64,000 bases of DNA, taken from positions 248,001 to 312,000 of the forward strand of contig JARFXP010000002.1 of the NCBI GenBank assembly GCA_029194675.1, given 5' to 3'. Made by a program: the position numbers and the translations under genes. Positions 6,972 to 41,374 of the stretch are shown piece after piece (the first letter of the stretch is position 1; each line of letters begins with the position of its first letter). The stretch is from Nitrospira sp. Lineage in GTDB: Bacteria > Nitrospirota > Nitrospiria > Nitrospirales > Nitrospiraceae. The notes beneath the pieces are model-generated. The model made no database searches and was not told the origin of the DNA. It saw only the letters and a program-made list of their open reading frames with translations.

Positions 6972-7178
6972 CGTAACATGGGCGATTGCTCCGGAGATAG
7001 TCGGACAGGGCGCTGAATGACGGAAGCCATCGAATCGATCAGTCGTGGAGCCGCCTAAACTAAGGAGAGGGATTGCTAGAACGAAACGTGATGATGTACG
7101 GACCGTAATCCTCACAATCAATGCCGAGGCCGCGATGAAATAGGCCATCGGTCAGAGGCCAGAGTACTGTACCTCCAG

Positions 7179-7217
7179 AGCCCAAGATCGCCAGGCGGCG
7201 GTCTTGGGCTTTTTATT
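7179..7217 (+). terminator. Intrinsic terminator upstream of exbB
   Basis: A 14-base-pair stem (one G-U wobble) with a 4-base AGGC loop, 7179-7210, is followed by a T-rich run. It reads on the plus strand although no plus-strand gene ends just upstream. It therefore ends either read-through or an unrecognised short transcript. A box GAGGCCAGAG lies 13 bases before the GAGCCCAAG that enters the stem, and the same arrangement recurs at 11337-11397. Confidence 0.8.
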
Positions 7218-7302
7218 GCCGGCCGATATGGAATGGATAGGTCAATGTCGCCGACGTTCCAGTGATTTGGGAGTCATAGAGGAGAAGATTTGATCATTTC
7301 AT

Positions 7303-7332
7303 GGTGAGGGTTTTGTACGCTCAATCGTCTTC
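7303..7332 (+). promoter_or_regulatory. Candidate ECF-sigma promoter before exbB
   Basis: GGTGAGG (7303-7309), 16-base spacer, CGTCTTC (7326-7332), ending 59 bases before the exbB start. Spacing and a CGTC-type -10 fit extracytoplasmic-function sigma promoters. Matching elements precede fecR, the receptor and the first NRPS gene. Assignment to the sigma factor encoded in this window is an inference. Confidence 0.55.
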
Positions 7333-7391
7333 TATATGAAGTGGTGCCGTCGGGAATGTTCAGCGTCGGCTCAGAACCAAGGAATCGCAAT

Positions 7392-7817
7392 ATGGACGCG
7401 CTTAAGGATTTGGTGGATTACGGGATCATTGGGCTGCTCTTAGCGCTCAGTCTCTGGGCACTGGCCGTGGCGGTGGAACGATGGCTCTACTATCGACGTG
7501 TGGGCCTCAATCAGTTCGAGAATATTCAGATCATGGAAATCGACCTGACAAAACGGCTGGTCGTGATCGGAACGGTGGCTGCCAATGCGCCGTACATTGG
7601 TCTCTTGGGCACCGTGTTGGGGATTATGTTGACCTTCCATACGATGGGCACATCGGGAACGATGGCGGTCAGTTCCATTATGGTCGGGTTAAGCCTGGCG
7701 CTCAAGGCGACGGCTATTGGGCTGTTGGTCGCGATCCCGTGCGTCGTGCTGAACAACATCCTCCGACGTCGTGTCTCCGAACTGCTTACGCTGTACAAGG
7801 TGCAGCATGGAGCGTGA
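7392..7817 (+). CDS. exbB: ExbB-type proton-channel subunit
   Basis: Inner-membrane proton-channel subunit that powers TonB. The 141-residue form starting at ATG 7392 is preferred: it has an AAGGA ribosome site 8 bases upstream and begins MDALKDLVDYGIIG. An upstream in-frame start at 7341 would add 17 unrelated residues. Three hydrophobic segments are visible (about residues 8-28, 58-80 and 95-120), the last two carrying the family pattern GTVAANAPYIGLLGTVLGIM. It is of the short ExbB class, without the long N-terminal extension of the E. coli protein. The stop overlaps exbD by 11 bases. Confidence 0.9.
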   Translation: MDALKDLVDYGIIGLLLALSLWALAVAVERWLYYRRVGLNQFENIQIMEIDLTKRLVVIGTVAANAPYIGLLGTVLGIMLTFHTMGTSGTMAVSSIMVGLSLALKATAIGLLVAIPCVVLNNILRRRVSELLTLYKVQHGA

Positions 7818-8181
7818 GCTGAATCAGATCAATGTCATTCCTCTCGTGGACGTGATGCTGGTCCTCTTGGTCATTGTCTTGACCACGGCGACGTTCATTT
7901 CGACGGGACAAGTGCCGGTCGAACTGGCGAAAGCGAAGGAAGTCAGCGATCACCAGGACGTGCCGCTGATGATTACCTTGACGTCCGATGGCCGGCTGTT
8001 TCTGAATGACCAATCCATCCCCACGAACGGGCTGACGACCGCCTTGAATGGGCATCCTCGCGAGTCAGCGGTCGTATTGCGGGCTGATCGAGTCACCGTC
8101 TTGGAGCGGTTCGTGGGAGTGGTCGATGAAGTGAGGGGACTTGGATTTAGACATGTGAGTCTTGAGGTCCTGCGATCATGA
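7807..8181 (+). CDS. exbD: ExbD-type TonB-energising protein
   Basis: Partner of ExbB. Starts at ATG 7807 inside the end of exbB, giving 124 residues. One N-terminal membrane helix (about 10-32) includes the key Asp that carries protons (LVDVMLVLLVI), followed by a periplasmic domain. The end overlaps tonB (ATGA), so exbB-exbD-tonB form a translationally coupled operon. Confidence 0.9.
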   Translation: MERELNQINVIPLVDVMLVLLVIVLTTATFISTGQVPVELAKAKEVSDHQDVPLMITLTSDGRLFLNDQSIPTNGLTTALNGHPRESAVVLRADRVTVLERFVGVVDEVRGLGFRHVSLEVLRS

Positions 8182-9008
8182 CGACCATCGAGTTTAGTCA
8201 GGTCGGCGTACGCACTGCCGTCGACAGAAGTGCTGTTGGAGAGCAGGCCCGAGGGTGGACGGTCTCCCTGCTGCTTCATGGCATGGCTGTGGTGGGCGCT
8301 GTTCTCTTCATGGCGGAAATTGACAAGCCGATTCTGCTGGAGTCGTTTCACTGGGACGTCTCGATGGTGGAAGCTCCGACGCAATCCGAATCGCCACCGG
8401 CCGAATCGGTGGTTCAGCCTCCTCCTTCACCCGTCACGCCGAAGCCACCCGTCAGACCGACATCCAAGCCGATCGCTCAACAGCCTCAGCCAATGACACA
8501 CCAGGAGTCGGTGGTCACCAACGCAGAGCCAGTGATGGAACATGCTCCCGTGGAGTCGGCTGAAAATCAGGTCGTCACATCGGAAGCCGCCGTCGCACAA
8601 ACGGTCGAATCATTCACTCCGCAGATTGTTGAACAGGCGTCTCCGGTTGAATCTCAAGGGCCTGTCTTGGAGCACCGCATGGTGCAGTACCGGCCGGTGC
8701 AATATCGCCGGACCCAAGCAGATTACGGCTGGCTCCGCGACATGCTTTGGAAGCGGATCGAAGAATTAAAGCGCTATCCGGCCCTGGCGAGAACCAACCA
8801 TTGGGAAGGCCGAGTCGTCGTCCAGGCAGTCATCAAGGCGGACGGGACAGTGGGAGAGCTCAGTGTCGCTGAAAGCTCAGGCCACGCGCTGCTGGATGAG
8901 GAGGCCTTGGTGGTCATGAAGAAAGCCTCCCCGTTGACGCTCAAACATCAATTGGAGAGGTCGCAGATTACCATTCTGGTTCCGATCAGTTATCGATTGG
9001 ACGGGTAA
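8178..9008 (+). CDS. tonB: TonB energy transducer
   Basis: Transmits the proton-motive force from ExbBD to outer-membrane receptors. A single N-terminal anchor lies at about residues 27-50 (SLLLHGMAVVGAVLFM), a Pro/Glu-rich periplasm-spanning linker at 65-165, and a C-terminal TonB domain at 185-276 with the characteristic YPALAR, GRVVVQAVIKADG and SSGHALLDEEAL segments. The position a few kilobases from a ferric-siderophore receptor suggests that it serves that system. Confidence 0.92.
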   Translation: MTTIEFSQVGVRTAVDRSAVGEQARGWTVSLLLHGMAVVGAVLFMAEIDKPILLESFHWDVSMVEAPTQSESPPAESVVQPPPSPVTPKPPVRPTSKPIAQQPQPMTHQESVVTNAEPVMEHAPVESAENQVVTSEAAVAQTVESFTPQIVEQASPVESQGPVLEHRMVQYRPVQYRRTQADYGWLRDMLWKRIEELKRYPALARTNHWEGRVVVQAVIKADGTVGELSVAESSGHALLDEEALVVMKKASPLTLKHQLERSQITILVPISYRLDG

Positions 9009-9062
9009 CAAGCGGCGCAAGAAACTCTCGTCGAGTGGAACACATACACAAGGAGAATCACG

Positions 9063-9521
9063 ATGAATCGCCGGACGATCAGACGCTCAATCATTCGCTC
9101 CGCGTCCTTCATGTCTGTTATTGGGATGCTTTGCCTATTTGCCGATCCAGCCTGGGCCCAGAACAAGAGCGAGAAGGCCTTCCACGCCGTGGCGGTTGAT
9201 GCGAAGAGCGTTGAAACAGACGTCAAGAACGTCACTTTCTATTACGAAGAAAAGATCAGTGAAACCGCGTTTGTGCCGCACGAGATGCGTGAGCTACCCG
9301 TGAAGCGTGGTACTGCCACCGTCAAAATCAAGTTCGACGGTATCAAACATATCGACCTCAAGCCATCAGGTAACGGCACAGCGCCGAACGTGACGATTAC
9401 ACTCAACGACGGCAAGACGGGGGAGTTTATCTTGGCCGTCGCAGGCAGTTTCAAAGGGCAATCAGAATTCGGGGAAGTCGAATTGCCGGCCGCGGAACTG
9501 AAAAAACTGACATTCAAGTAG
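9063..9521 (+). CDS. Small secreted protein of unknown function in the tonB operon
   Basis: 152 residues with a clear signal peptide (basic start, hydrophobic core at about 17-30, cleavage after AWA). The mature part is about 120 residues, predicted beta-rich, with no cysteines and no motif that I recognise. A good ribosome site (AAGGAGA) precedes the ATG. It lies 54 bases after tonB on the same strand and is probably co-transcribed, suggesting a periplasmic role near the uptake machinery. The function is unknown. Confidence 0.75.
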   Translation: MNRRTIRRSIIRSASFMSVIGMLCLFADPAWAQNKSEKAFHAVAVDAKSVETDVKNVTFYYEEKISETAFVPHEMRELPVKRGTATVKIKFDGIKHIDLKPSGNGTAPNVTITLNDGKTGEFILAVAGSFKGQSEFGEVELPAAELKKLTFK

Positions 9522-9565
9522 GCCTTCTTCGCCGGACCACAGCATTCGGCGAACGGGGTAGGGTC

Positions 9566-9751
9566 ATGAATGAGTCGCGCGTGTCAACCGCATTGGGTAT
9601 GGACGTCCGGTGCCACTGCGGGAAGCTGGTGGCTCGCTGGGAAGGTCGAAGTCTGGTTATCAAGTGCGTGCGCTGCAGGCGATTCATCCGGATTCACGCG
9701 TCCGCCATAGGTGGCTGGCCGCCTCACGGGCTCATGTCGCGTCCGCGGTAA
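9566..9751 (+). CDS. Small zinc-ribbon protein (Com-like)
   Basis: 61 residues containing CHCGKL then, 18 residues on, KCVRCRR: two CxC/CxxC knuckles that could bind one zinc, with many basic residues. The layout resembles Com of phage Mu and similar small zinc-ribbon proteins, but no phage genes are nearby. It lies between the secreted protein and the PepSY-TM gene, 44 bases after the former. Role unknown; a nucleic-acid-binding or metal-sensing function is only a guess. Confidence 0.6.
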   Translation: MNESRVSTALGMDVRCHCGKLVARWEGRSLVIKCVRCRRFIRIHASAIGGWPPHGLMSRPR

Positions 9752-9850
9752 CTTCCGTCCACACACACCATCCCCTGCAAGGCCAAGGGATCGGGAATCT
9801 GAACTACCGGCTACAGGCCGCGCGGTTCTTATCCCATTAGGCGCAGCGAC

Positions 9851-11122
9851 ATGATTGCCGACCAGTTTAGGTCCAACATCACACAACCGGACTTGATCGA
9901 CCCCATTGGTGCTTCTGCGGGCCTTGATTCACCAGCGTCGGCGCAGCCTCATTTTAAATTAAAAAGGTTTTGGCTGAAGATCCATCTCTATCTGGGACTG
10001 TTCGGCGGCGGGCTGTTCGTATTGATGAGCCTCACCGGCAGCTTCTTGGTCTTCTATAAGGCCATCGACGAATGGTTGAATCCCGCGCTCGTGACGACGA
10101 ACGGCGAGAGTTCCTATCGACCCTTGAATGAGATCGTCGCGGTGGCCAGGACGGCTGGCCCATCCGATGGCGTACTGGATAGCGTCGAATGGCCGTCCCA
10201 CCCGCGGGGTGTCTTTCTCACCTGGCACAAGGTGCCGGCCGATACAGTCGGTGGCTTCAGTTGGTTTCAAGTGGCCATCGATCCGTATACGGCAGTCGTG
10301 CTGACCAAAGACCGTGAATGGGGCGGATACCTGGTTTCGTTCATCTACAAGCTGCATGCATCGCTTCTGATGGACGATGTTGGTGCGGCGATATTAGGGT
10401 TTGTCGCTATCGCCCTGCTTGTCTCGATCATTACCGGTCTGTACCTCTGGTGGCCGCGTCCCGGTCGCCTCCGTCAGGCACTCACCTTCACATCGGCCAG
10501 GAGCCCGATTCGTCGACAGTACGAATGGCACAAACTCAGTGGATTCTACAGCGCGATCATCCTGGGGATGCTCGCCTTCACCGGTCTGTACCTGGAATTC
10601 AGCGACTATGTGGTTCCGATCGTTCGACTCTTTTCGCCGGTTCAAGAATTTCCTGAAGAAGAAACGCTGCAATCCATTCCAATTGCAGGCACTCTGCCGT
10701 TGTCCGTCGAGGAGGCGATCGCGCTCACGGGGCGAGTGTTTCCGGAAGGGGAGTTGCGGTCCATCAGCATTCCTCATGGGGACACGGATGTCTATCAAAT
10801 CAGCCTGCGCCAGCCGGGCGAGGTCATGGAATCGAGCGGTCAAAGCCAAGTCTGGCTGGATCAATACAGCGGTAAGATCCTTCGTGTCCACGATTGGCGG
10901 CAGTTTACCGGCGGCGAAACGTTTTTGGCTTGGCTCTTCCCTCTGCACAACGGCGAAGCATTCGGCCTCGCCGGTCGATGGATCGTGTTCTTCATCGGGT
11001 TTGTTCCCCTCGTGCTTTACGTCACTGCGCTGCGCATGTGGTGGCTCAAGCGACAGGCGCATCGCCGGCAATCGGCATATGATCCAGAACATTATCATCG
11101 CCTTCCTCTGTTACCGGATTGA
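9851..11122 (+). CDS. PepSY-TM family membrane protein, probable ferric-siderophore reductase
   Basis: 423-residue inner-membrane protein with four membrane helices at about residues 42-65, 175-200, 232-252 and 370-395, and two periplasmic PepSY-like loops. Helix-associated histidines (KIHLYLG, YKLHASLL, YEWHKLSG, FPLHNGEAF) match the haem-type histidines of the PepSY_TM family, whose members FoxB, PiuB and FpvG act in iron release from siderophores. Given the neighbouring TonB system, sigma/anti-sigma pair and receptor, reduction of the imported ferric siderophore at the inner membrane is the likely job. Family call is firm, substrate inferred. Confidence 0.85.
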   Translation: MIADQFRSNITQPDLIDPIGASAGLDSPASAQPHFKLKRFWLKIHLYLGLFGGGLFVLMSLTGSFLVFYKAIDEWLNPALVTTNGESSYRPLNEIVAVARTAGPSDGVLDSVEWPSHPRGVFLTWHKVPADTVGGFSWFQVAIDPYTAVVLTKDREWGGYLVSFIYKLHASLLMDDVGAAILGFVAIALLVSIITGLYLWWPRPGRLRQALTFTSARSPIRRQYEWHKLSGFYSAIILGMLAFTGLYLEFSDYVVPIVRLFSPVQEFPEEETLQSIPIAGTLPLSVEEAIALTGRVFPEGELRSISIPHGDTDVYQISLRQPGEVMESSGQSQVWLDQYSGKILRVHDWRQFTGGETFLAWLFPLHNGEAFGLAGRWIVFFIGFVPLVLYVTALRMWWLKRQAHRRQSAYDPEHYHRLPLLPD

Positions 11123-11577
11123 TCGTATCTGAAGCCGTTCCATCGCGACAGGTGACTCGGCATCACGTCTTGCCACCCGCCATAGCGAACGTGACCCAAG
11201 ACAACGAAAGATTTCCCACCGAACTCTAGCCTGAGGGGTTGACAACGTCCTGCAATAATGATATTGAGAACTCCTATCAAGGAGATGTCTGCCAGGCAAC
11301 GAAGCCCTATCATCGATTAGCAGTCGCAGGAACCAAGAGGCCAGAGGTCGCATTGACCGGAGCCCAAGGCGTCGTTAGATGCTTTGGGCTTTTTTGTTTT
11401 GGGACAGAGATCCGAAAGCAGCGCTCCGCACTGCCGCGTTACGGTGTTGTTGGTTGGATGGAGGGCCGGCATCGGGTCGAGGACGAGCATCGTCCTGGCG
11501 GGGATCTCGGCAAGGCGATTGGCCGGTGGCAAAGCAGGAACAGGAACCGCTTCAGACAAGCCTGAGGAGAAGAAATC
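11123..11577. other. Intergenic region with terminator; possible short transcript
   Basis: A 455-base gap after the PepSY-TM gene. A perfect TTGACA hexamer sits at 11239-11244 with only a weak -10 (TATTGA, 17-base spacer). An intrinsic terminator lies at 11361-11397 with a GAGGCCAGAG box 13 bases before its GAGCCCAAG entry. A transcript of roughly 120 bases between these signals is possible but unproven. An open frame across 11239-11565 runs through the terminator and does not look like a gene. Confidence 0.45.
11361..11397 (+). terminator. Intrinsic terminator after the PepSY-TM gene
   Basis: A 10-base-pair stem (one G-U wobble) with a 10-base loop, 11361-11390, followed by TTTTTGTTTT. It is placed 240 bases after the PepSY-TM stop and about 180 bases before the next small gene. 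It shares stem sequence and the upstream box with the terminator at 7179. Confidence 0.8.
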
Positions 11578-11745
11578 ATGATATCAAACTGCAAGCGATG
11601 CGGAGGTTTCCTGGTAGGCGAGCAAGCGCTCGATTACTACCAAACGCGATGCTGGAAATGTGTTAACTGCGGTTGGTACCGCAGGGAGACTCAAATCCGC
11701 CCAAGCCGACCCATCACATTGATGAATCATCGTGTCGGCAAATAG
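11578..11745 (+). CDS. Tiny zinc-ribbon protein, 55 residues
   Basis: A short open frame beginning ATG ATA TCA AAC TGC, with an AGGAG ribosome site 8 bases upstream. It contains CKRCGG near the start and CWKCVNCGW about 17 residues later: a four- or five-cysteine knuckle typical of small zinc-ribbon proteins, followed by a basic tail. It resembles in size and cysteine layout, but not closely in sequence, the Com-like protein at 9566. Function unknown. Confidence 0.6.
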   Translation: MISNCKRCGGFLVGEQALDYYQTRCWKCVNCGWYRRETQIRPSRPITLMNHRVGK

Positions 11746-11779
11746 GTTCGAACATTGATCGACGAAAGGTGAGGACACT

Positions 11780-11998
11780 GTGAAAAATACGTTACAAGCC
11801 GATGGAGCGATGAGGTTGGTCCTGTGCGATTGCGGCAAACTGCATGTGACGTTAGGTTCCGTCACCCTGCACTTCACCCGCGACGAGTTTCAGAAGTTTG
11901 CTGAATCGATACGACGCCTTGCAGGGATTGTGGGACAATCCGGACCCTTTCAGGCGTCGGCAGGAGGACGGTCCTCCTTCTCCGAAGGATGTCACTGA
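11780..11998 (+). CDS. Small conserved-looking protein of unknown function
   Basis: 72 residues starting at GTG, with AGGTGAGG as ribosome site. The core MRLVLCDCGKLHVTLGSVT, with a CxC pair, is followed by an amphipathic stretch (FTRDEFQKFAESIRRL). I recognise no domain. It belongs to a string of very small genes between the uptake block and the sigma factor. The last 20 residues are low-complexity and could be less conserved. Confidence 0.55.
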   Translation: MKNTLQADGAMRLVLCDCGKLHVTLGSVTLHFTRDEFQKFAESIRRLAGIVGQSGPFQASAGGRSSFSEGCH

Positions 11999-12127
11999 GA
12001 CGAGAGCCACGAGTGTCCGACCCAAGTTGTGGAGAGGAATTGCTTGGAGGCGTGGGACGCACGCATGGACGACGCACAGGCCAGGCGTAGTGCACTGCCT
12101 TCGTGCAAGACCGTTGAAGGGTCGGCT

Positions 12128-12292
12128 GTGAAGAGGTATGGCATCGCATCTCGTAACGATCTTGCGGTGGTCCTTAGCTTGGCGACGGCGATCAGCATTC
12201 TCATGTCGGCTGGGGCAACTATGTGGATATGGTCGAATGTTTCGGAGAGTAGGGCGACGGTCACTGTCGAGGAAGGCTTGGATAGGCCGTAG
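12128..12292 (+). CDS. Possible 54-residue single-span membrane protein
   Basis: A GTG start at 12128 with AAGGG 8 bases upstream gives a peptide with one hydrophobic segment (VVLSLATAISILMSAGATMWIW) and a short charged tail. A longer frame back to 12029 has a non-coding-looking start. Only the hydrophobic segment and ribosome site support it. Confidence 0.35.
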   Translation: MKRYGIASRNDLAVVLSLATAISILMSAGATMWIWSNVSESRATVTVEEGLDRP

Positions 12293-12299
12293 AGGAACC

Positions 12300-12365
12300 A
12301 TGGACCTTGTTGTATTGATGGCCGCGGCCTTCGGCGCTTTTACAGCTGTGTTCGGGTCTAGTTGA
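12300..12365 (+). CDS. Possible 21-residue hydrophobic peptide
   Basis: ATG at 12300 with AGAGGA just upstream, encoding a very hydrophobic peptide (MDLVVLMAAAFGAFTAVFGS) that stops at 12365. It starts 7 bases after the preceding small membrane frame. It could be a membrane micropeptide or chance; evidence is weak. Confidence 0.25.
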   Translation: MDLVVLMAAAFGAFTAVFGSS

Positions 12366-12489
12366 AAACACTCGGTATCCAGCAACCAGCACTAAACGAG
12401 GCCCGGGGTCGTTGCAGATCGGACTCCGAGGTATCAAGGGACACCGTGGGCTTTCTTATTTCGCACAAAGGATTTTGAGGAGATACACG

Positions 12490-13086
12490 ATGAGGATCCA
12501 GGGCATGAATCTTGTTGGAATAGAGTCCATGGTATCGTGCGATGCTCGTGAGTCGGCGGGTACCTCTCTAACGCTCACGTATGAGCAGATCGCAGGCTTG
12601 TTTCATCAGTACCGCGAGGAACTCACCCGTCGCCTTGTCGGTATGGTGAGATCTCACGAGACAGCCGCCGATCTTGTGCAAGATACGTATGTGCGGCTGC
12701 TGCGGCTGGGCGATCAGCAAGCCGTCGAGCAGCCGCGCGCCTTGCTTCACCGGATTGCGGCCAACCTGGCGATCGACCATTTACGAAAAGAAAAGCATCC
12801 GGTCCATGCCGCCGATGGTTTGGATGCCGCGATGGCGGTGCCCAGCCACGCGCCCTCTCCGGAACGCGAGTTGCTCGGAAAACAGCGGTTTCGAATCGTC
12901 CTTCAAGCGATTGAACGTTTGCCCTCTCGAACCCGCGAAGCCTTCCTGCTCTGCCGGGTGTATGGGTACTCCTATCAAGAGATCGCGAGGCGTATGAATA
13001 TCTCTGAAAGCGCTGTGGAGAAGTTGCTGATGCGCGCGCTGGATCGGAGCTGTGAAGCGCTCGAATCGTTAAACAACGCTGAGTGA
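12490..13086 (+). CDS. ECF RNA polymerase sigma factor, FecI type
   Basis: Directs RNA polymerase to iron-uptake genes when released by its anti-sigma factor. The start at ATG 12490 (198 residues) has a GAGGAG ribosome site; a TTG further upstream (12412) would add 26 residues. Sigma region 2 is seen at about residues 45-95 (ETAADLVQDTYVRLLRL) and region 4 at about 140-190 (LPSRTREAFLLCRVYGYSYQEIARRMN, a helix-turn-helix). It sits directly before a FecR-type gene and a receptor with signalling domain, the classic FecI-FecR-FecA order. Confidence 0.9.
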   Translation: MRIQGMNLVGIESMVSCDARESAGTSLTLTYEQIAGLFHQYREELTRRLVGMVRSHETAADLVQDTYVRLLRLGDQQAVEQPRALLHRIAANLAIDHLRKEKHPVHAADGLDAAMAVPSHAPSPERELLGKQRFRIVLQAIERLPSRTREAFLLCRVYGYSYQEIARRMNISESAVEKLLMRALDRSCEALESLNNAE

Positions 13087-13110
13087 GGAAGGTGGTCCTC
13101 CGATTCGTCA
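13083..13110 (+). promoter_or_regulatory. Candidate ECF-sigma promoter before fecR
   Basis: GTGAGG (13083-13088) overlaps the sigma-factor stop codon and is followed by a 17-base spacer and CGTCA (13106-13110), 50 bases before the FecR start. It is the weakest of four similar elements (-10 is CGTCAC, not CGTCTAC). It would give autogenous expression of the anti-sigma gene. Confidence 0.4.
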
Positions 13111-13123
13111 CACTGTATACTAA

Positions 13124-13156
13124 GCGGCCTCGTCGAGCATCAGCCGACGAGGCCGC
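13124..13156 (+). promoter_or_regulatory. 12-base-pair hairpin over the fecR ribosome site
   Basis: A perfect inverted repeat: left arm GCGGCCTCGTCG (13124-13135), 9-base loop, right arm 13145-13156, ending three bases before the ATG at 13160. No T-run follows, so it is not a normal terminator. The only ribosome-site-like GAGG (13150-13153) is inside the right arm, so folding would hide it. Confidence 0.6.
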
Positions 13157-13159
13157 CTC

Positions 13160-14149
13160 ATGCAGCGAACAAACGAATCAGGCGACATGTTTCCTTGTGA
13201 AGAAGCCAGGCTCCGGAAGGAAGCCGTGGCGTGGCTTATTCGGTTACAGAACGATAGCCTGTCGCCGGAAGAGCGACGGGCATTCAATGGGTGGCACGAG
13301 CAGAGTCCGGCGCATGCGCTGATGTTTCGTAAGGTTTCGACCGTTTGGAACAGTCCCGATTTGCGCGCGGCTGCGGAAGCGGCTGTGCAGGCCGATCCTT
13401 CCTCGTTCAAGATAAGAACTACGGTGCGTCGACGGTGGTCGATTCTAGCCTCCGCTTGTGTCATCCTAGTCATTGTCGTCGCGGTACACCTCGATGTTAT
13501 TACGCGATGGCGGGCCGATTATCGGACCGAAGTCGGCGAGCGCCGCACCGTTGAATTGCCGGACCGGTCGATTGTTACCCTCAACACTCAATCAGCGATC
13601 GAGCTTTCGTTTGACGCCTCGACACGACGAATCCGTTTGCTCAAAGGGGAAGCGCTCTTCAACGTCCGGCATGATCCAGCCCATCCGTTCATCGTGGAAA
13701 GCGCCGACACCACCACGCGGGCTGTCGGAACGGCTTTTGTCGTGCGGGCAGAGCCGGATGGTGATCAGATTATCGTCATCGAAGGCGCCGTCGAAGTCGA
13801 TGTGATCAGTGCTGGACGAGAGGCTCACCTACCGGCAATCGCGACTTCCGGATCGCGGATCGATATGGTGCAAGGCCGGATGGGGGAACCGTATCCCGTC
13901 GATGTCTCGGCGGCCTCAGCCTGGGCGCGAGGGCGGCTCGTGGTCAACGGCGTCCCGTTCGCCCAGGTGATCGACGAATTGCGTCGGTACTATCCTGGCA
14001 CGATCGTCTTGTGGAACCACGCCATCGATGAGATGCAGGTGACCGGGACCTATAACCTTGAAGACCCCGCAAGAGTCTTGTCTCTTCTGACCCAGACCCT
14101 TCCGATCCGACAGGTCAGCTTGACCGATCGCATTGTGATTCTTTTCTAA
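13160..14149 (+). CDS. FecR-type anti-sigma / signal-transducing membrane protein
   Basis: Holds the ECF sigma factor and receives the signal from the outer-membrane receptor. The cytoplasmic DUF4880 part (about residues 14-60) carries the conserved AVAWLIRLQ and FNGWHEQSPAHA segments. One membrane helix lies at about 92-112, a periplasmic FecR domain at about 118-215 (VGERRTVELPDRSIVTLNTQS), and a C-terminal STN-like DUF4974 region at about 255-329 (GRLVVNGVPFAQVIDELRRY). Start at ATG 13160; ATG 13187 is an alternative that would free the ribosome site from the hairpin. Confidence 0.9.
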   Translation: MQRTNESGDMFPCEEARLRKEAVAWLIRLQNDSLSPEERRAFNGWHEQSPAHALMFRKVSTVWNSPDLRAAAEAAVQADPSSFKIRTTVRRRWSILASACVILVIVVAVHLDVITRWRADYRTEVGERRTVELPDRSIVTLNTQSAIELSFDASTRRIRLLKGEALFNVRHDPAHPFIVESADTTTRAVGTAFVVRAEPDGDQIIVIEGAVEVDVISAGREAHLPAIATSGSRIDMVQGRMGEPYPVDVSAASAWARGRLVVNGVPFAQVIDELRRYYPGTIVLWNHAIDEMQVTGTYNLEDPARVLSLLTQTLPIRQVSLTDRIVILF

Positions 14150-14180
14150 ATTCGTCGTCACTCTTTTTCAGCCTCAAGTA

Positions 14181-14211
14181 GGTGAGGTGAATCCTGTCGC
14201 CTTCCGTCTAC
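14181..14211 (+). promoter_or_regulatory. Candidate ECF-sigma promoter before the siderophore receptor
   Basis: GGTGAGG (14181-14187), 17-base spacer, CGTCTAC (14205-14211), ending 35 bases before the receptor start. Ten consecutive bases around the -10 (TTCCGTCTAC) are identical to those before the first NRPS gene at 16987-16996, and AGGTGAGG is shared too. Confidence 0.6.
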
Positions 14212-14246
14212 AGGAGGATGGGCAAGCACGGGAGGCGCTGAGCTGA

Positions 14247-16856
14247 GTGAAGAGAGAGGAACGAGACAACGGACATATTTCACGACACGACGATCGAAAC
14301 CGCCGATGGTTTCCTGCGTGGTCGCAGGATTTCTGTCGGCGCCTGCTGCTTCTCGCGCTCATCGTGACGGTCGCCGACGACCTATTCGCGCAACAGGGCG
14401 TCCCGCCGGGAACAAAAGGCGCCCCAATCGAGTTCAACATTTCTGCACAACCGCTCGGCTCCGCGCTGAACGCCTTCGCCGAGACGACGGGCTGGCAGGT
14501 CAGTGTGCCGACCGAGCTGGTCGCCGATCGGGCCTCCTCCGGGCTCAGCGGGACCCACCAGCCCGAAGCTGCACTGCAGGCGCTGTTGGCCGGGACAGGA
14601 CTGATCTATCGTTTGACCGAGAGCAATGCCGTCACGCTCGTGCCGGGAGCCGCAATGCCGACCGTGGCCTCGCCGTCGATCGGTGAAAGTCAGGCCACAA
14701 CGCCGGGATCGCAGGCTGGGTCGATGGATACCACAATGGCGAAGCCCATTAAGGTGTCTGAAATTGTGGTGAAAGAAAAACGTGAGCGGCGAGATTCCTA
14801 TACCGTTGACGAGGCCTCGAGTGCGACCAGGATTCCCGTTCCGGTTCACGACACCCCTCGGTCTGTCGAGGTGGTAACGAGGCAGGTGATGGACGATCAA
14901 AAAGTCACCCGGTTCAGTGAGGCCCTGCGGAATGTAAGCGGGGTGGCGGAATCCAACACTCAGGGCGGTCGCGCCGGCGAATTCACGATCCGGGGATTTG
15001 CATCGGAATTCAACGTCTTCAAGAACGGCTTTCGCGATGACGCCAGATTCGCCTCAACCGACGCGCGAGACGTCATCAACCTAGAGCGCATCGAGGTCGT
15101 CAAAGGTCCACCATCCTATCTGTACGGTCGAGGCGATCCGGGTGGTGTCATCAATCAAATCACGAAGGCGCCGCTGAAAACTCCTTATTACTCGGCGGAA
15201 ATGCTCATCGGCAGTTATAACCTGTATCGTCCACAGTTCGACATCGGCGGCCCGCTGAACGCCAGCAAGACGCTGACCTTTCGATTTAACGGCCTGTTCG
15301 AGTCATCTGGCAGTTACCGAGAAGGGGTCGAGTCGACCAGGACCTTCCTGGCGCCGACGATCGGGTGGGAGATCGGGCCTCGGACGACCTTGAGGTTCGA
15401 AGGTGAGTACCTATACAGTCGCGCCCCCATCGACCGCGGATTGACCGCCTTCGGCGGAGGCGTCTTGCCGATCCCGATCAGCACCTTCTTAGGCGATCCG
15501 ACTCGTATGAATATAGCGCAAAATGGGAAAGCCACGCTGATCTTGTTGCACGACTTCAACGACATGTTCAGGTGGCGCACCGGTTTTAGAGCGGCGGTGA
15601 ACAGCGACCAGTATCGGAGCCGGGAAGCGTGGTTCTACGTCGGGGACGAAAGCAATGGCATTTTGAATCTGGCACAGTTTTACATCCCCGCTTTCAACCA
15701 GAGTTACTATTTGCAGAATGAATTGCACGGAAATTTTTCCACCGGCCCGATCAAGCACAAGACCATCCTCGGGATCGAGCTGGGACGTGAAGTCTCTGAT
15801 AGTACAACAGCCGACGATAATCAGGGTCAGGATACCAGCATACCTGGCGCCTTCAGCTATATTAACGTTTTTAATCCTGCCGACCGACTCTTTCTGGATA
15901 CCCCGCTCACCACAATCAATGATAGCAAAGAAGTCAACGGTATTCTGGGCGTCTATTTCGGCGATCACGTGAGTCTCACGGACAAGCTCCACCTGCACGC
16001 CGGTGGCCGGTTCGATTACTTTAAGCAGGATCTCACCAATCGTCCCACCGATCTCGATCCGACTCAAACTGAGGAAGGCCAAACCGACACGGCTTTCAGC
16101 CCGTCCGTTGGACTGACCTATCAACCCTGGAAACCCATCGCGTTGTATGCCAACTATACCGAGTCCTTCATGCCTAATATCGGAACCAGAAGCTTTGACC
16201 GGGCGCTGTTGAGTCCACAGCGGGGCAAGGCCTATGAAGGAGGGGTCAAGTTTCGATTCTTCGAGGACCGGTTGCGGGCGACCATCGCCGGTTTTCACAT
16301 CAATAAGACAAATGTGCCAACGATCGATCCGATCAACGGATTCCCGTTTTTGGTAGCGACGGGTGAACAGCGGAGTCAAGGTATCGAGTTCGACGTGGCA
16401 GGAAGGATTTTGCCGGGGTGGGATCTCATCGGCAACTATGCCTACATCGACGCGAGGGTCACCGAAGATAATGAATTTTTGGTAGGAAGCCGACTGCCCA
16501 ACGTCCCCCTCAACCAGGGCAGTCTCTGGACGACCTATTTTCTCCAGGAGGGTCCGCTCAAAGGCCTTGGCGCTGGACTCGGCATGTATGCCCAAGGCAA
16601 GCGGAACGGCATGTTCCAATGCCAGAATCCGGGCGATTGCCCGGAACCGTTCGAACTTCCCGGGTTTGTTCGCATGGATGCCGCGGTGTACTATCGGAAA
16701 CCGGAGATATTCACCCGAACCAACTTACTCGCTGCCGTGAACTTCACCAACGTCTTGGATCAGCGGTACTTTACCGGAACGTTGGGGATGCGGGAAGTTG
16801 TCTACACCGGCGCGCCCTTCACGGTGATCGGCTCTGTGAAGCTGGAGTTTTTCTAG
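14247..16856 (+). CDS. TonB-dependent ferric-siderophore receptor with STN signalling domain
   Basis: Outer-membrane receptor of the FpvA/FecA class. It starts at GTG 14247 with a basic N-terminus and signal peptide (hydrophobic residues about 32-45, cleavage near LFAQ). An STN (secretin/TonB N-terminal) domain at about 55-130 would contact FecR. A TonB box candidate (VSEIVVKE) lies near 170. The plug, about 200-330, carries the motifs NVSGVAES, FTIRGFASEFNVFKNG and RIEVVKGPPSYLYGRGDPGGVIN. A 22-strand-type barrel follows and ends in Phe-Phe, as expected for outer-membrane insertion. 869 residues is normal for this class. Confidence 0.93.
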   Translation: MKREERDNGHISRHDDRNRRWFPAWSQDFCRRLLLLALIVTVADDLFAQQGVPPGTKGAPIEFNISAQPLGSALNAFAETTGWQVSVPTELVADRASSGLSGTHQPEAALQALLAGTGLIYRLTESNAVTLVPGAAMPTVASPSIGESQATTPGSQAGSMDTTMAKPIKVSEIVVKEKRERRDSYTVDEASSATRIPVPVHDTPRSVEVVTRQVMDDQKVTRFSEALRNVSGVAESNTQGGRAGEFTIRGFASEFNVFKNGFRDDARFASTDARDVINLERIEVVKGPPSYLYGRGDPGGVINQITKAPLKTPYYSAEMLIGSYNLYRPQFDIGGPLNASKTLTFRFNGLFESSGSYREGVESTRTFLAPTIGWEIGPRTTLRFEGEYLYSRAPIDRGLTAFGGGVLPIPISTFLGDPTRMNIAQNGKATLILLHDFNDMFRWRTGFRAAVNSDQYRSREAWFYVGDESNGILNLAQFYIPAFNQSYYLQNELHGNFSTGPIKHKTILGIELGREVSDSTTADDNQGQDTSIPGAFSYINVFNPADRLFLDTPLTTINDSKEVNGILGVYFGDHVSLTDKLHLHAGGRFDYFKQDLTNRPTDLDPTQTEEGQTDTAFSPSVGLTYQPWKPIALYANYTESFMPNIGTRSFDRALLSPQRGKAYEGGVKFRFFEDRLRATIAGFHINKTNVPTIDPINGFPFLVATGEQRSQGIEFDVAGRILPGWDLIGNYAYIDARVTEDNEFLVGSRLPNVPLNQGSLWTTYFLQEGPLKGLGAGLGMYAQGKRNGMFQCQNPGDCPEPFELPGFVRMDAAVYYRKPEIFTRTNLLAAVNFTNVLDQRYFTGTLGMREVVYTGAPFTVIGSVKLEFF

Positions 16857-17194
16857 CCGGCTCTTCATCATCTCAACAGAAGCGAGACAATACGTAGGCC
16901 GTGGGAACCTCACAGGGCGCGTCGTGGTCTGGAGCTGATCCTCTCGGCAAAAGGTCGCGTAGGCCAGGTGAGGGAAATGCTTCGTGTTCCGTCTACGTAG
17001 TAAAGAGCGCTTCAGTCATCAGAGAAGGGACGCGGCCCTGGCACGCCGCTAGTCTGGCTCCCTTCGATGCAGATGGCCTTCGAGCTCACCGGCTGAGGCA
17101 ACGAGAGAAACCCTACAGAGGTTCACGAGGATTCGGGATGCAGGCAACCGGCATCCCACGCCCTGGGTGTCTCTCATGATCGAGAAAGACTCCA
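16857..17194. other. Intergenic region before the biosynthetic operon
   Basis: A 338-base gap between receptor and first NRPS gene. It contains the ECF-type promoter candidate at 16967-16996, leaving a leader of roughly 200 bases. A short frame at 17176-17205 (ATG start, 9 codons) overlaps the proposed NRPS start but lacks a ribosome site. An open frame 16901-17179 has no coding character. No terminator was seen after the receptor. Confidence 0.5.
16967..16996 (+). promoter_or_regulatory. Candidate ECF-sigma promoter of the biosynthetic operon
   Basis: GGTGAGG (16967-16973), 16-base spacer, CGTCTAC (16990-16996). It is the only strong promoter-like signal I see before the more than 47 kb of packed biosynthetic genes. 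See the matching elements before exbB, fecR and the receptor. Confidence 0.6.
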
Positions 17195-20100
17195 TTGGCA
17201 TCTGATGAACACAAAGACATGGTAACGCTCGTCGATCTTGCTCGTCAAAGAGCCGACCGTTTCACGAATCGAACGGCCTACACATTTTTGACCGACGGCG
17301 AGTCAGAGACCTGCGAAGTCACGTATGGTGAATTGGATCGTCAAGCACGTGCCATTGCGGCTTGGCTTCAGTCGCTGGGAGCTCAGGGAGAACGAGCCAT
17401 CCTTCTCTATCCGCCTGGTCTGGACTATATCGCGGCATTCTTCGGTTGTCTGTACGCGGAGGTCGTCGCAGTACCGGCCTATCCTCCGCAACGGAAGCGA
17501 ACGCTGGGAAGATTGCATGCGGTCCTTGCAGACTCAGGAGCCACCTTTGCCTTGACGACGGCGAAAGTCCGCGCCGGCATCGATCGTCTGTGCCGCCAAG
17601 ATCCAGGAATGGACGAGTTCCGGAAGGTCCAGTGGATCGAAACCGATGCCATACCCGAAGGCATCGAACGCACTTGGAGACCGCCTGCCTTGACGGCGAG
17701 GACGCTCGCCTTTCTCCAATACACCTCCGGGTCAACCGGATCTCCGAAAGGAGTCATGGTCAGTCATGAGAATCTGCTGCACAACCAACGCATGATTCAA
17801 GAGGCGTTCGGCCATACCGAGGAGACGACGGTTCTTGGGTGGCTTCCGCTCTATCACGACATGGGACTGATCGGGAACGTTCTTCAACCCCTCTATCTCG
17901 GCCGGCCTTGTGTGCTGATGTCGCCCGTGCACTTCATGCAGAAACCGGTTCGGTGGTTGTCCGCCATTTCTCGATATCGTGCCACAACCAGCGGCGCGCC
18001 GAATTTTGCCTATGACCTCTGTGTGCGCCAGATTTCTGCAGAGGAACGAGCTTCGCTGGACTTGAGTTCTTGGTTGGTGGCTTTCAACGGGGCTGAGCCC
18101 ATTCACGCCGGAACGCTGGATCGATTTTCGGAAAAATTCGGTCCTTGCGGGTTCAGGCGCGAGGCATTCTATCCCTGTTACGGGCTGGCCGAAGCGACAT
18201 TGTTTGTCGCTGGAGGTGAACGCGGGGCGGCACCCGTTGTGAGAACCGTTCAGAAAGCCGCGATGGAGCGAGGCCGGATCATCGATTCCACTCGGGCGGA
18301 TAGCTCCACTCAACGCTTGGTCGGATGTGGTCGAATCGGCGCTGATCAGCAAGTGATGATTGTGAACCCCGAAACCCTGTCGCGCTGCCTCCAAAGACAG
18401 GTGGGCGAAATCTGGGTGAAAGGTCCAAGCGTGGCACAGGGGTACTGGAAATGCCCTGAAACCACGGCGCTGACGTTTGCGGCAACGATGGCGGATACAG
18501 GTGAGGGTCCGTATCTTCGGACCGGCGATCTGGGAGTGAGCCAGGACGGCGAACTGTTCGTGGTCGGGAGATTGAAAGATCTGATCATTATCCGCGGCAG
18601 AAACCATCACCCGCAGGACATTGAGACCACGGTGCAGGAAAGCCATTCGTCTCTCAAGCCCGGCTGCGGCGCGGCCTTCTCCATCCCCATCAACGATGAG
18701 GAACAGTTGGTTGTGGTGCAGGAAGTTGTCGGCGCTCCCACGGTCGATCTCGACCATGTCGCGTCGGAAATCAGTCGGGCTGTCACGGAGCATCACGAAA
18801 TCCAAGTACATGCTGTGGTTCTCATCAAGCCTGGAACCCTTCCCAAGACTTCGAGCGGGAAGGTTCAGCGGCACCTGTGTCGGACGAAATTTCTTGCGCA
18901 AGAGCTGGAAGCAATTGAAACGTTTCTGGATAAGAGGGTGGCAGGACCGACCGATTCTGCCGCTGAGGATGCCGACAATGGCATGATTAAAACAGTGGGC
19001 GAAATCTGGGCTCAGGTGCTTGACTGTGCCCGCATAGGGCCTCACGACAATTTTTTCGAACTGGGCGGAGACTCGTTGCGAGGGACGCAAGTACTGGCGA
19101 GGGTACGCGAAACCTACGCAGTCGATCTTCCCCTCGAATCTCTGTTCGACGCACCAACGGTAGCGGGTCTGGCGGCGCTGATCAAACCGACATGTCGATC
19201 GACCGAATCTCTGTCGCAGAGAAAGCCCGAATCGACGAGTTGGAACGGCATCATGCCCCTATCTTTTTCCCAAGAACGATTCTGGTTTCTCGATCAACTT
19301 TCGCAGGTAAACTCGTTCAACAATATTCCGGTCGCCTTGAGGATTGAGGGAGCGCTCAATCTTGAGTCGTTTCATCGTGCTTTGGCTGAAATCGTGCGGC
19401 GCCATGAAATCCTTCGGGCGAGATTTGTTGTCTCTCACGGCTATCCCGGTCAGGTTATCGCTCCGCATGTTGACCTGCCTCTTCCAATTGAGAATCTCAC
19501 AGGTGTGTCAGGACCGGCTCAAGAAGAACAGGTCAGACGGTTGACCTTGAAAGAGGCCCGACAGTCGTTTGATCTGGCGACCGGACCCTTGATTCGAGTG
19601 CGGCTTCTTCGTCTCAGCCAAACCGAGCATGTCTTGTTGCTCACGATCCATCACATTGTCGCCGACGGCTGGTCCATGCGCCTCCTTGCCCGGGAACTGG
19701 TGCAGCTGTATGGGGCATTCAAAAACGGGTTTGATTCCCCTTTGCCCATTCTATCGAAACAGTATTTGGATATGGTCCTCCATCAACGTGAATGTGTGGA
19801 CAGTCACGAATGGAAACGGCAAGAGACCTATTGGCGTCGACAGCTGGAATCCGTACCTGTGCTCACGCTGCCATTCGATTTTCCGCGACCCGCTGTGCAA
19901 GGGCAGCAGGGTGAGCGATATGCCTGGACAGTGGATGCGGAGGTAGGACGGCAACTATTCGTAATTGGTTGCAGCCAGCAGGCGTCACTGTTCATGACCG
20001 TTCTAGCTTCGTTCAACGTGCTCTTGGCCCGCTACAGCGGGCAGTCTGAATTTTGTGTCGGCACACCTGTGGCCAACCGATCACAGCCGGAATGTGATTC

Positions 20101-22567
20101 GATTATCGGCTGTTTCGTCAACACGGTCGCATTGCGTGCCGATCTGTCCGGTAGTCCTTCATTTTTAGAGCTTCTAGCACGAGTCCGAAAGACCGTCCTT
20201 GGAGCACAGGCCAACCAAGAGCTTCCTTTTGAGCGGTTGGTCGATGTGCTCCACGTGCCGCGCAGCCTCAGCCATACACCGCTCTATCAGGTCATGTTGA
20301 CTGTGGAGGAGGACCAGCCCGATCTCTGCCGACTGGACGGTCTGGATGTCCGCCGGATGAAGACGAGCCCACAGACATCCGCCTTCGACCTCACGCTTGA
20401 GCTGGTGGCAATGAAAGACGGGACATTGGAGGCAGTGTTTGAGTACAACACGGACCTGTTCGCCGGCGAAACCATCGCGCGCATGGCCGGACATTTTCAG
20501 GAATTGTTGAGGCAGGTTGCGCTGCATCCTGAAGCCCGCGTGAGCGAACTCGGCATGTTGAGCCAGGATGAGAGAAGACACTTACTTGAGGATTGTAATA
20601 ATACGGCCGCGTCTTATCCACACGAGTCCTGCCTCCATCACCTGTTCGAAGAGCAAGCACGACTCACGCCGGATGCCCTTGCGATGGTGTGGAACGGGGC
20701 GTCGTACAGCTACCGATTCCTCAATGAACGAGCCAACCAACTTGCCCGTTATCTCAGATCGCAGGGCATCGCGATAGAAAGCCGCGTGGCGCTTTGCATG
20801 GAACGCTCGCTGGAGATGGTCGCTGGTCTGCTGGGAATTCTCAAAGCCGGAGCCACCTATGTGCCGATGGATCCATCGTATCCCCGCGAACGACTCGGTT
20901 TCATGATCGAGGACAGCGGCGCGCAGCTGGTGCTCACTCAAAAACGATTTGTCGAGAATTTTCAGAACCGGACGGTTCCGATCATCGCACTGGACGAAGC
21001 GTGGACGACCGTTACGACTTTGCCCGACAGCGATTCCCGGTGGCGCACTGTTCCGGAGAACTTGGCCTATGTTCTGTATACCTCCGGGACGACAGGTGCA
21101 CCGAAGGGGATCGAAATCTCCCACCGAGCGTTGGTCAATCATAGTACGGCCATGGCGAGGCATTACGGTCTTCAGCCGACCGATCGTGTGCTGCAATTCG
21201 CCTCGATCAGCTTCGATGTCGCGGCTGAGGAGTGCTTTCCGACCTGGGCGGCCGGTGCAACGGTGGTGTTGCGCCCGAACGAGCCGGTGCCGGCGTTTTC
21301 GGATTTGGAGCAGTTCATCGAGGACCACGGTCTCACCGTGTTGAACTTGCCGACGCCATACTGGGATGAATGGATTGAGGCGAGTGAGCAGACCGAAACA
21401 GCGCTTCCGCCTTCGATCCGTTGGGTCATCGTGGGGAGTGAGAAGGCTCTGCCGGATAGTCTGGTGCGGTGGCAACGACTTGCCGGGGACCGCATCGCCT
21501 GGTGCAACTCGTATGGACCGACTGAAGCCACGATCACGGCGAGCTACTTTGTGCCGGAGCGACAGAAGGATTGGATGTCGGCAGCTACGGTGCCGATCGG
21601 CCGACCGATTGCGAACGTGCAATTGTATGTCCTCAATCCTGCCTTGCAACCGGTTCCGATCGGGGTGGCAGGAGAGCTCTACATCGGTGGGGTTGGCTTA
21701 GTCCGAGGGTACCATCGTCAGCCGGCTTGGACTGCCGAAAAGTTTCTCCCGGACTGTTTCAGCCACGCACCGGGCCGGCGACTGTATCGGACCGGCGACA
21801 AGGTCCGGCGACTCGCGGACGGGAATGTGGAATTTCTCGGGCGATACGACGACCAAATAAAGGTTCGCGGATTCCGGGTCGAACCGGAGGAAATTGAGGT
21901 TCGGGTGAAGCAACATCCGGCCGTGAAGGATGCGCGGGTCTTCCAGGAATTGAACGCTCAGTCTGGTTTGCCGGCTGGGGCACGAAGGGGAGAGCCGCAA
22001 TTGGTGGGCTATGTCGTGTCGCGGGCGGAGGGCGGCGTGACGGCGCAGGATCTTCGGAGTTTCCTGGCCGACCGTCTGCCCGGGTACATGATTCCCACGG
22101 CATGGGTATTCCTCGACGGCTTTCCGCTCACATCGCGTGGGAAGGTGGATCGTCAAGCCTTGAGGAATCTCGCCGGACGGATTCAGATGGCGGAGCCACG
22201 GTCGGCTCCACTTCAGACCGAGACCGAGCGGGCGATCGCAGACATTTGGAAAGCTGTTCTCGGCCTTGAAGCAGTCGGTCGGCACGACAACTTTTTCGAT
22301 CTCGGCGGGCATTCTCTTCTCCTCGGTAAGGTGCTGACGCAGGTTCGCTCACTGAGCAAGCGGCCACTGGGGATGGTGGAGTTATTTCAATATCCCACCG
22401 TGCAGGACTTGGCCGCATATGTCACCGATGGGCGGCCCCTCATGGAAGGTCGTGGAGCGGCTGCTCAAACCGAACAGACACAAGAGGTAAAGGAACGACG
22501 AATAGCAGGCGCGCAACGGTTGAAGCGGCAGCGAGAACAACGACGGACGATGACACGCGGAATCTGA
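17195..22567 (+). CDS. Loading NRPS: FAAL-ACP-C-A-PCP
   Basis: Starts the lipopeptide. A fatty-acyl-AMP ligase (about residues 1-575; LQYTSGSTGSPKG near 173) would activate a fatty acid and load the following ACP (about 595-665, GGDSLRG). A condensation domain (about 683-1110; HHIVADGW near 819) links it to the amino acid of the adenylation domain (about 1135-1640; YTSGTTGAPKG near 1294), carried on the last PCP (about 1665-1735, DLGGHSL). My reading of the specificity positions is D-V-E-N-I-G-S-I-T, which I cannot assign; it shares E-N with hydroxy-ornithine codes. The TTG at 17195 is the longest start, but ATG 17219 (MVTLVDLARQRAD) better fits FAAL proteins. The layout parallels PvdL's first part. 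The PKS gene begins one base after its stop. Confidence 0.92.
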   Translation: MASDEHKDMVTLVDLARQRADRFTNRTAYTFLTDGESETCEVTYGELDRQARAIAAWLQSLGAQGERAILLYPPGLDYIAAFFGCLYAEVVAVPAYPPQRKRTLGRLHAVLADSGATFALTTAKVRAGIDRLCRQDPGMDEFRKVQWIETDAIPEGIERTWRPPALTARTLAFLQYTSGSTGSPKGVMVSHENLLHNQRMIQEAFGHTEETTVLGWLPLYHDMGLIGNVLQPLYLGRPCVLMSPVHFMQKPVRWLSAISRYRATTSGAPNFAYDLCVRQISAEERASLDLSSWLVAFNGAEPIHAGTLDRFSEKFGPCGFRREAFYPCYGLAEATLFVAGGERGAAPVVRTVQKAAMERGRIIDSTRADSSTQRLVGCGRIGADQQVMIVNPETLSRCLQRQVGEIWVKGPSVAQGYWKCPETTALTFAATMADTGEGPYLRTGDLGVSQDGELFVVGRLKDLIIIRGRNHHPQDIETTVQESHSSLKPGCGAAFSIPINDEEQLVVVQEVVGAPTVDLDHVASEISRAVTEHHEIQVHAVVLIKPGTLPKTSSGKVQRHLCRTKFLAQELEAIETFLDKRVAGPTDSAAEDADNGMIKTVGEIWAQVLDCARIGPHDNFFELGGDSLRGTQVLARVRETYAVDLPLESLFDAPTVAGLAALIKPTCRSTESLSQRKPESTSWNGIMPLSFSQERFWFLDQLSQVNSFNNIPVALRIEGALNLESFHRALAEIVRRHEILRARFVVSHGYPGQVIAPHVDLPLPIENLTGVSGPAQEEQVRRLTLKEARQSFDLATGPLIRVRLLRLSQTEHVLLLTIHHIVADGWSMRLLARELVQLYGAFKNGFDSPLPILSKQYLDMVLHQRECVDSHEWKRQETYWRRQLESVPVLTLPFDFPRPAVQGQQGERYAWTVDAEVGRQLFVIGCSQQASLFMTVLASFNVLLARYSGQSEFCVGTPVANRSQPECDSIIGCFVNTVALRADLSGSPSFLELLARVRKTVLGAQANQELPFERLVDVLHVPRSLSHTPLYQVMLTVEEDQPDLCRLDGLDVRRMKTSPQTSAFDLTLELVAMKDGTLEAVFEYNTDLFAGETIARMAGHFQELLRQVALHPEARVSELGMLSQDERRHLLEDCNNTAASYPHESCLHHLFEEQARLTPDALAMVWNGASYSYRFLNERANQLARYLRSQGIAIESRVALCMERSLEMVAGLLGILKAGATYVPMDPSYPRERLGFMIEDSGAQLVLTQKRFVENFQNRTVPIIALDEAWTTVTTLPDSDSRWRTVPENLAYVLYTSGTTGAPKGIEISHRALVNHSTAMARHYGLQPTDRVLQFASISFDVAAEECFPTWAAGATVVLRPNEPVPAFSDLEQFIEDHGLTVLNLPTPYWDEWIEASEQTETALPPSIRWVIVGSEKALPDSLVRWQRLAGDRIAWCNSYGPTEATITASYFVPERQKDWMSAATVPIGRPIANVQLYVLNPALQPVPIGVAGELYIGGVGLVRGYHRQPAWTAEKFLPDCFSHAPGRRLYRTGDKVRRLADGNVEFLGRYDDQIKVRGFRVEPEEIEVRVKQHPAVKDARVFQELNAQSGLPAGARRGEPQLVGYVVSRAEGGVTAQDLRSFLADRLPGYMIPTAWVFLDGFPLTSRGKVDRQALRNLAGRIQMAEPRSAPLQTETERAIADIWKAVLGLEAVGRHDNFFDLGGHSLLLGKVLTQVRSLSKRPLGMVELFQYPTVQDLAAYVTDGRPLMEGRGAAAQTEQTQEVKERRIAGAQRLKRQREQRRTMTRGI

Positions 22568-22568
22568 G

Positions 22569-27170: not shown

Positions 27171-27183
27171 GGAACGCACGACG

Positions 27184-28848: not shown

Positions 28849-28866
28849 ACGGCATCGTCGTCGTCA

Positions 28867-28902
28867 TGCGGCAATCGGCGTAACAGTCTCAAGGTTGCCG
28901 CA
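28867..28902 (+). repeat. Inverted repeat in the gap before the aminotransferase gene
   Basis: TGCGGCAA (28867-28874) and TTGCCGCA (28895-28902) form 8-base arms around a 20-base loop in the 76-base gap between the exporter and aminotransferase genes, the widest gap of the operon. No T-run follows. It could be a messenger-processing or protein-binding site; no direct evidence. Confidence 0.35.
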
Positions 28903-28924
28903 CTAGTGAAGGAAGGAGCGCGTC

Positions 28925-32772: not shown

Positions 32773-33011
32773 ACAGCGAGGAACGTGAGGACACAACCGT
32801 ATACAAGGTCGTCGTGAACCATGAAGAGCAATACTCGATCTGGCCATCCTATCGCGAGAATCCGCTCGGCTGGAGAGACGAGGGGAAAACCGGCCTCAAG
32901 GCCGAATGTCTGGCCCATATCGCGGAGGTCTGGACCGACATGCGCCCGTTGAGTTTAAGGAAATGGATGGACGAACAGGCCAACGCGGAACAATCGACAT
33001 CCTCATGCTGA
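32769..33011 (+). CDS. MbtH-like protein
   Basis: Small chaperone that binds and activates NRPS adenylation domains. Signature residues are present: [22 protein letters not shown], the Cys in ECLAHI and [11 protein letters not shown]. The 80 residues include a short acidic N-terminal tail. It overlaps the acylase gene by four bases and the thioesterase gene by seven. Usual partners would be all the A domains of this operon. Confidence 0.95.
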
Positions 33012-41366: not shown

Positions 41367-41374
41367 GAGACGGA

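Follow-up and report, generated by a model that had tools for sequence, protein, structure and literature searches.

How is siderophore-mediated iron uptake controlled in Nitrospira, a genus known for nitrite oxidation and complete nitrification? A literature search covering FecI, extracytoplasmic function (ECF) sigma factors, siderophores and TonB returned no paper on the control of iron uptake in Nitrospira, the accessible part of PMC7005843 included, and the subject appears to be unstudied. We analysed a 64,000-nt stretch of Nitrospira sp. DNA (the window) that carries a siderophore locus with a gene for a FecI-type ECF sigma factor (fecI, 12490..13086, + strand, 198 aa). The original prediction held that four copies of the element GTGAGG-N16/17-CGTC in this stretch are the −35 and −10 elements of promoters recognized by that sigma factor. 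This assignment is supported by conservation at orthologous genes and by specificity for one group of FecI proteins. From these sequence comparisons, we consider it very probable that the four sites and two further ones past the window are −35 (GTGAGG) and −10 (WTYCGTCW) promoter elements read by the sigma factor encoded at 12490. The motif defines a testable regulon in which a single sigma factor would govern the synthesis, export and uptake of the siderophore together with the energy supply. An ECF regulon of this sort is of a known kind; a new −35 element, its regulator-targeted wiring and a leader RNA make this one a variant of interest.

The four GTGAGG blocks start at 7304, 13083, 14182 and 16968, with spacers of 16, 17, 17 and 16 nt, respectively, at the coordinates that had been claimed, and the window contains no other match to GTGAGG-N16/17-CGTC. 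On the + strand, they precede exbB (7303..7332), the sigma regulator gene fecR (13083..13110), the gene for a siderophore receptor with an STN domain (14181..14211) and the first nonribosomal peptide synthetase (NRPS) gene (16967..16996), the predicted start of which lies 202 nt downstream. The −10 block mostly reads WTYCGTCW in the 42 sites compared. The description of all four as non-coding fails for the second, the GTGA of which (13083-13086) coincides with the last bases of fecI and contains its TGA stop codon; it holds for the other three if exbB starts with the ATG at 7392, the likely start as judged by eye from a good ribosome-binding site before it. In 100 dinucleotide shuffles of the window, the motif occurred 0.53 times on average, so that the earlier estimate of ~0.2 chance hits per 64 kb was approximately 2.5-fold too low, and at least four matches occurred in one shuffle. 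Because 1/100 shuffles also yields four, the window statistics alone are suggestive, not compelling. Widening the spacer to 15-19 nt added two window matches, at 5680 and 32785.

In the whole genome (5.2 Mb), the short motif has 47 matches. Six of these fall within the 63.6-kb siderophore locus, all on one strand, while ~0.5 would be expected from the other 41 (P ~1e-5); this enrichment test is post hoc, the motif having been derived from four of these sites. The tighter pattern GTGAGGN14-15WYCGTCW has 10 genome matches, five of which lie upstream of genes of the locus (the four window sites and one 2.4 kb beyond the window) and five within or antisense to open reading frames (ORFs). The site beyond the window (L090:4454) lies ahead of the genes for an RND periplasmic adaptor, an AcrB-family permease and an outer-membrane efflux protein. 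A sixth, looser site (L090:8858) precedes the outer-membrane gene of the RND exporter.

Further evidence comes from a held-out set of 19 stretches from relatives (298,358 bp), none of which had been used to define the motif. These stretches contain 51 matches, compared with ~2.4 expected from the background of the own genome, and 43 of the 51 lie at most 330 bp upstream of the start of a queried gene of this system; the remaining eight include coding matches and one site in L038 with its adaptor gene beyond the stretch. The motif recurs upstream of orthologous genes in related genomes. Counted over this genome and the relatives, it precedes 15 of 23 fecR genes, which break down into 15 of the 16 orthologues (at least 45.9% identity) and none of seven paralogues (29-35%). 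An exact site is present before 13 of 24 receptor genes overall; where the fecR ahead of the receptor gene bears a site (15 cases), the receptor site is exact in 13 and has one mismatch (CTGAGG) in two. The exbB gene of the locus has a site in all eight loci and exbB copies elsewhere in none of four, NRPS1 has one in six of eight loci, and the adaptor gene in four of five. No site was found upstream of any of 23 fecI copies, six RND permease genes or 10 copies of the gene at 9063 (g9063). Because the distant fecR paralogues and the out-of-locus exbB copies have no site, a role of the motif as a general Nitrospira promoter was ruled out.

Alignments of these loci show that the −35 and −10 blocks are kept at the same gene positions while the spacer has diverged. 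The sites could be taken for chance matches within the 64-kb window, given the one shuffle in 100 with four matches and the many matches elsewhere in the genome, but in the held-out loci both blocks are conserved at the same genes. This refutes the explanation, and we attach practically no weight to it.

Relatives also carry a second group of FecI proteins, 43-44% identical to those of the first, and the −35 differs between the groups. In N. defluvii-type loci (L045-L050), both fecR and the receptor gene are preceded by GGGGAWWW-N13-CGTC (6/6); the −10 CGTC is thus common to both groups. The recognition helix reads SERAVEKHLVKA in most N. defluvii-type FecI proteins compared with SES[AG]VEKLLMRA in the group studied here. 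The only orthologous fecR without a site, that of L084 (49% identity), goes with a FecI that has altered recognition-helix residues, and its intergenic sequence contains CGTC and lacks GTGAGG. This concurrence of an altered helix and a missing GTGAGG agrees with a statement in part of PMC9023288 that in OrbS and PvdS a similar region 4.2 pairs with similar −35 sequences. The two FecI groups, with a common −10 and differing −35 sequences, form a natural data set on how region 4 reads the −35.

Several observations count against FecI as the reader of these sites. The short motif is unspecific, with 41 genome matches outside the locus, and FecR-less relatives likewise show a pattern density of ~1 per Mb. 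We dropped the excess over a reversed-pattern control as a genome-wide test, because these relatives show a similar excess and the control therefore understates the background. Because orthologous loci share ancestry, the locus counts are not independent events, and at fecR the stop codon places some of the −35 under coding constraint. Sites are rare before the outer-membrane factor (OMF) gene (1/3), tonB (1/12) and the PepSY gene (1/14), and are missing from NRPS1 of L086, the NRPS1 fragment in L038 and the adaptor gene of L081. Finally, Sigma70_r4_2 has 36 matches in the genome, which probably include other ECF sigma factors. One of these might read the sites, alone or together with FecI, and in L082 and L084 the exbB site does lie downstream of a second, distant fecI-fecR pair. 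We nevertheless consider a different reader improbable: within the loci compared, the site follows this FecI group and is absent from the FecR paralogues, the other FecI group has its own −35, and the genome encodes a single FecR.

Two blocks at nearly fixed spacing would also fit the two half-sites of an operator for a DNA-binding repressor or activator, in place of promoter elements. However, the blocks are neither repeats nor palindromes of each other, their 16/17-nt spacer is typical of −35/−10 pairs, and the sites are oriented toward the gene. The −10 block is moreover common to the second FecI group with its different −35, and a separate palindromic, Fur-box-like operator is already present at 11259, so that we regard operator repeats as highly improbable and promoter elements read by FecI as the preferred interpretation.

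The palindromic operator TGATATTGAGAAnnnnTATCA (11259..11279, + strand) overlaps the promoter-like sequence TTGACA-N17-TATTGA; it is the only genome match at up to two mismatches and is located 1.2 kb upstream of fecI. In relatives, the palindrome TGATATTGAGAAnnnnTATCA likewise overlaps a TTGACA-type promoter upstream of fecI, in several of them ~240 nt before the gene. Because it resembles a Fur box, we take this palindrome to be a putative Fur site.

Between the Fur-like operator and fecI lies a leader RNA element of ~70 nt, which consists of GGCCAGAG, a hairpin (P1), C[AG]GAGCCC and an intrinsic terminator. A covariance model (R1) built from 25 copies identified three copies on the + strand of the window: one after the Fur-like operator (11332..11403, 79.3 bits), one directly before fecI with a terminator that is weakened in this genome (12393..12465, 58 bits), and one upstream of exbB in the region divergent from TatD (7150..7222, 54.1 bits). 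A further copy lies past the window on the − strand (L090:13601-13670). The element is present in 42 of 59 Nitrospirales relatives and, across the phylum, in 39 of 148 genomes, 36 of which belong to the Nitrospirales. In 109 distinct rows aligned to the model, an alignment that is model-fitted and leans to the structure of the model, P1 with a short GGC/GCC helix covaries strongly (78 cells changed on both sides compared with 26 when shuffled), as does the terminator (242 compared with 71).

The leader can form either the GGC/GCC pairing around P1 or the terminator. Because these structures are alternatives, the leader may be an attenuator or riboswitch; the GGC/GCC pairing that competes with the terminator hardly varies and is therefore a putative one. 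ORFs downstream of 72 leader copies, called mechanically and grouped into BLAST clusters, encode HD-domain proteins (24), tonB-like proteins (6), exbB (5), receptors (5) and FecI-like proteins (4), a tally in which most fecI copies are not included; the one HD-domain member tested matched Pfam HD_5. A small gene behind one copy had given the impression of a bacterioferritin-associated ferredoxin; this label was rejected for a fragment without a Pfam match.

Searches against the 4227 Rfam families gave only sub-threshold matches, and a known Rfam family was therefore rejected; a literature search that included the accessible part of PMC12342949 found no description of the element. Where the upstream gene is divergent (window position 7150 and L082), the element is unlikely to be the terminator of that gene; at other places it may be one. 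On this comparative evidence, we regard the leader as a good regulatory RNA candidate. We put forward only tentatively, as somewhat less probable than the contrary, that a cis-regulatory RNA of a new class controls fecI, an attenuator or riboswitch sensing iron status or a linked signal. If real, the leader would represent a new kind of regulatory RNA from an important group that is hard to grow.

The sequences show where the sites lie, that they are conserved and that they go with a single FecI group. In the mechanism that we propose on this basis, sigma binding, the points of transcription initiation, the signal and the part played by Fur are inferred. When iron is scarce, fecI transcription would be released from a Fur-like repressor. 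A ferric siderophore on the STN-domain receptor would then send a signal through TonB/ExbBD and FecR that activates FecI, which in turn would switch on exbB-exbD-tonB, the receptor gene, the NRPS/polyketide synthase (PKS) genes, the RND exporter and fecR. With fecR among the targets and fecI not, feedback would run through the regulator, not the sigma factor.

The locus shares with FecI-FecR-FecA of E. coli an ECF sigma factor, a FecR-type regulator, a TonB receptor with an STN domain, a sigma-type promoter before the receptor gene and a Fur-like site ahead of the sigma gene. An adjacent FecR, an STN receptor and a conserved promoter sequence before the receptor gene were all found, which points to Fec-type cell-surface signalling. 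According to part of PMC9249621, transcription of fecIR in E. coli begins at a promoter ahead of fecI, and the only promoter under FecI control is the one before fecA. In the Nitrospira locus, by contrast, sites also precede fecR, ExbB, the exporter and NRPS genes, and they have GTGAGG as their −35. The same source states, in the part available, that sigma factors for iron uptake activate neither their own gene nor the gene for their anti-sigma factor, HasI/HasS being the exception. In the Nitrospira loci, the site occurs at 15/16 fecR orthologues and 0/23 fecI genes, which is wiring of the HasI/HasS type.

As judged from this distribution, a HasI-like arrangement would be the better model than E. 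coli Fec. In HasI-HasS-HasR of Serratia marcescens, the sigma factor drives the regulator and receptor genes and not its own gene, and the HasI gene is Fur-repressed (part of PMC9249621). The Serratia system differs in serving heme and a hemophore, in a proposed −35 of TTTACGGGTTT and, as far as that part describes it, in having no siderophore synthesis.

In the pyoverdine system of Pseudomonas (PvdS/FpvI-FpvR-FpvA), signalling from receptor to sigma factor also drives siderophore synthesis. The Nitrospira cluster resembles it further in a cyclic-peptide-export ABC transporter and a distant PvdQ-like acylase, the match of which is far below the cut-off. Pseudomonas uses two sigma factors with one regulator (part of PMC9249621), while the genome analysed here has one FecI and one FecR. 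OrbS and MbaS of Burkholderia are likewise iron-starvation sigma factors that each serve a siderophore cluster, and a Fur box marks the sigma gene (part of PMC8908255). They differ in lacking a neighbouring anti-sigma gene and do not belong to cell-surface signalling systems, according to the accessible parts of PMC8908255 and PMC9023288.

At fecR, the sigma site may overlap a housekeeping promoter. The sequence TATACT (13116..13121, + strand) begins 6 nt after CGTC, and 18 nt upstream of it is a −35-like hexamer that reads TTGGTC/T in most relatives and GTGGTC here, which makes such an overlapping promoter possible. TATACT is present at the fecR promoter in 12 of 15 aligned loci and absent from L037, L038 and L044. 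In the same three loci, fecR is cut to 82-83 codons and ends before the membrane segment (L037:8700, L038:8697, L044:8267), such that the shortened gene coincides with loss of TATACT, with the sigma site and receptor retained. Because the FecI proteins of the three loci look closely related, the shortening was probably a single event. The FecR of L044 has Arg in place of the first conserved Trp. A special constraint on the FecR N-terminus in the shortened lineages was not upheld: the dN/dS values are compatible with it and not distinctive (0.22-0.46 compared with 0.12-0.82 for intact pairs). Part of PMC9249621 reports that FecI is constitutive in E. coli FecR nonsense mutants at codon 82 and that an N-terminal fragment of FpvR is an inhibitor of its sigma factors; by analogy, the short FecR could either activate or inhibit. 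The fecR leader also contains a strong hairpin (13124..13157, + strand; fold −34.8 kcal/mol, z −4.4).

The protein assignments are as follows. FecI passes as an ECF sigma factor, with Sigma70_r2 and Sigma70_r4_2 of Pfam and TIGR02937 (sigma70-ECF) above the cut-offs, and stays below the curated NCBIfam cut-offs for FecI (NF041727, 66.5 bits vs 260; NF007232, 70.8 vs 185). It is FecI-type by gene context, not an equivalog of E. coli FecI. The adjacent FecR (13187..14149, + strand), the only one in the genome, has an N-terminal DUF4880 domain followed by FecR and FecR_C; two relatives have ATA in place of the ATG at 13160, which makes 13187 the likelier start. The TonB-dependent siderophore receptor (14247..16856, + strand) scores above the cut-off of TIGR01783, and its N-terminal STN domain reached 28.1 bits in one search (cut-off 28.4) and 33.4 bits, over the cut-off, in another. 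It is one of two STN-domain proteins of the genome. In one relative (L036:9761-12365), the receptor gene is broken at residue 125 into two reading frames, by a frameshift or an assembly error.

Upstream on the + strand, Pfam identifies exbB (7392-7817; ExbB model TIGR02805 above the cut-off), exbD (about 7807-8181) and tonB (8178-9008), and elsewhere in the locus a PepSY-TM protein. The 152-aa protein encoded after tonB (9063-9521) has no Pfam match and is kept in most orthologous loci. NRPS/PKS siderophore biosynthesis genes, as identified by Pfam and NCBIfam, extend over 17195..58224 (+ strand) and include a thioesterase and two TauD-family proteins; the ORFs of 34791-57157 were placed in the cluster from length and position only. 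Within it, the cyclic-peptide-export ABC transporter (27184-28848, + strand; NCBIfam above the cut-off) and a penicillin-amidase-family protein (30328-32772, + strand) form a pairing that recalls pyoverdine maturation, with the PvdQ model reaching 50 bits against a cut-off of 950. The stretch from the NRPS sigma site to the NRPS gene (16994-17195) measures 202-204 nt in six loci and is strongly conserved, and a further regulatory element may be located there.

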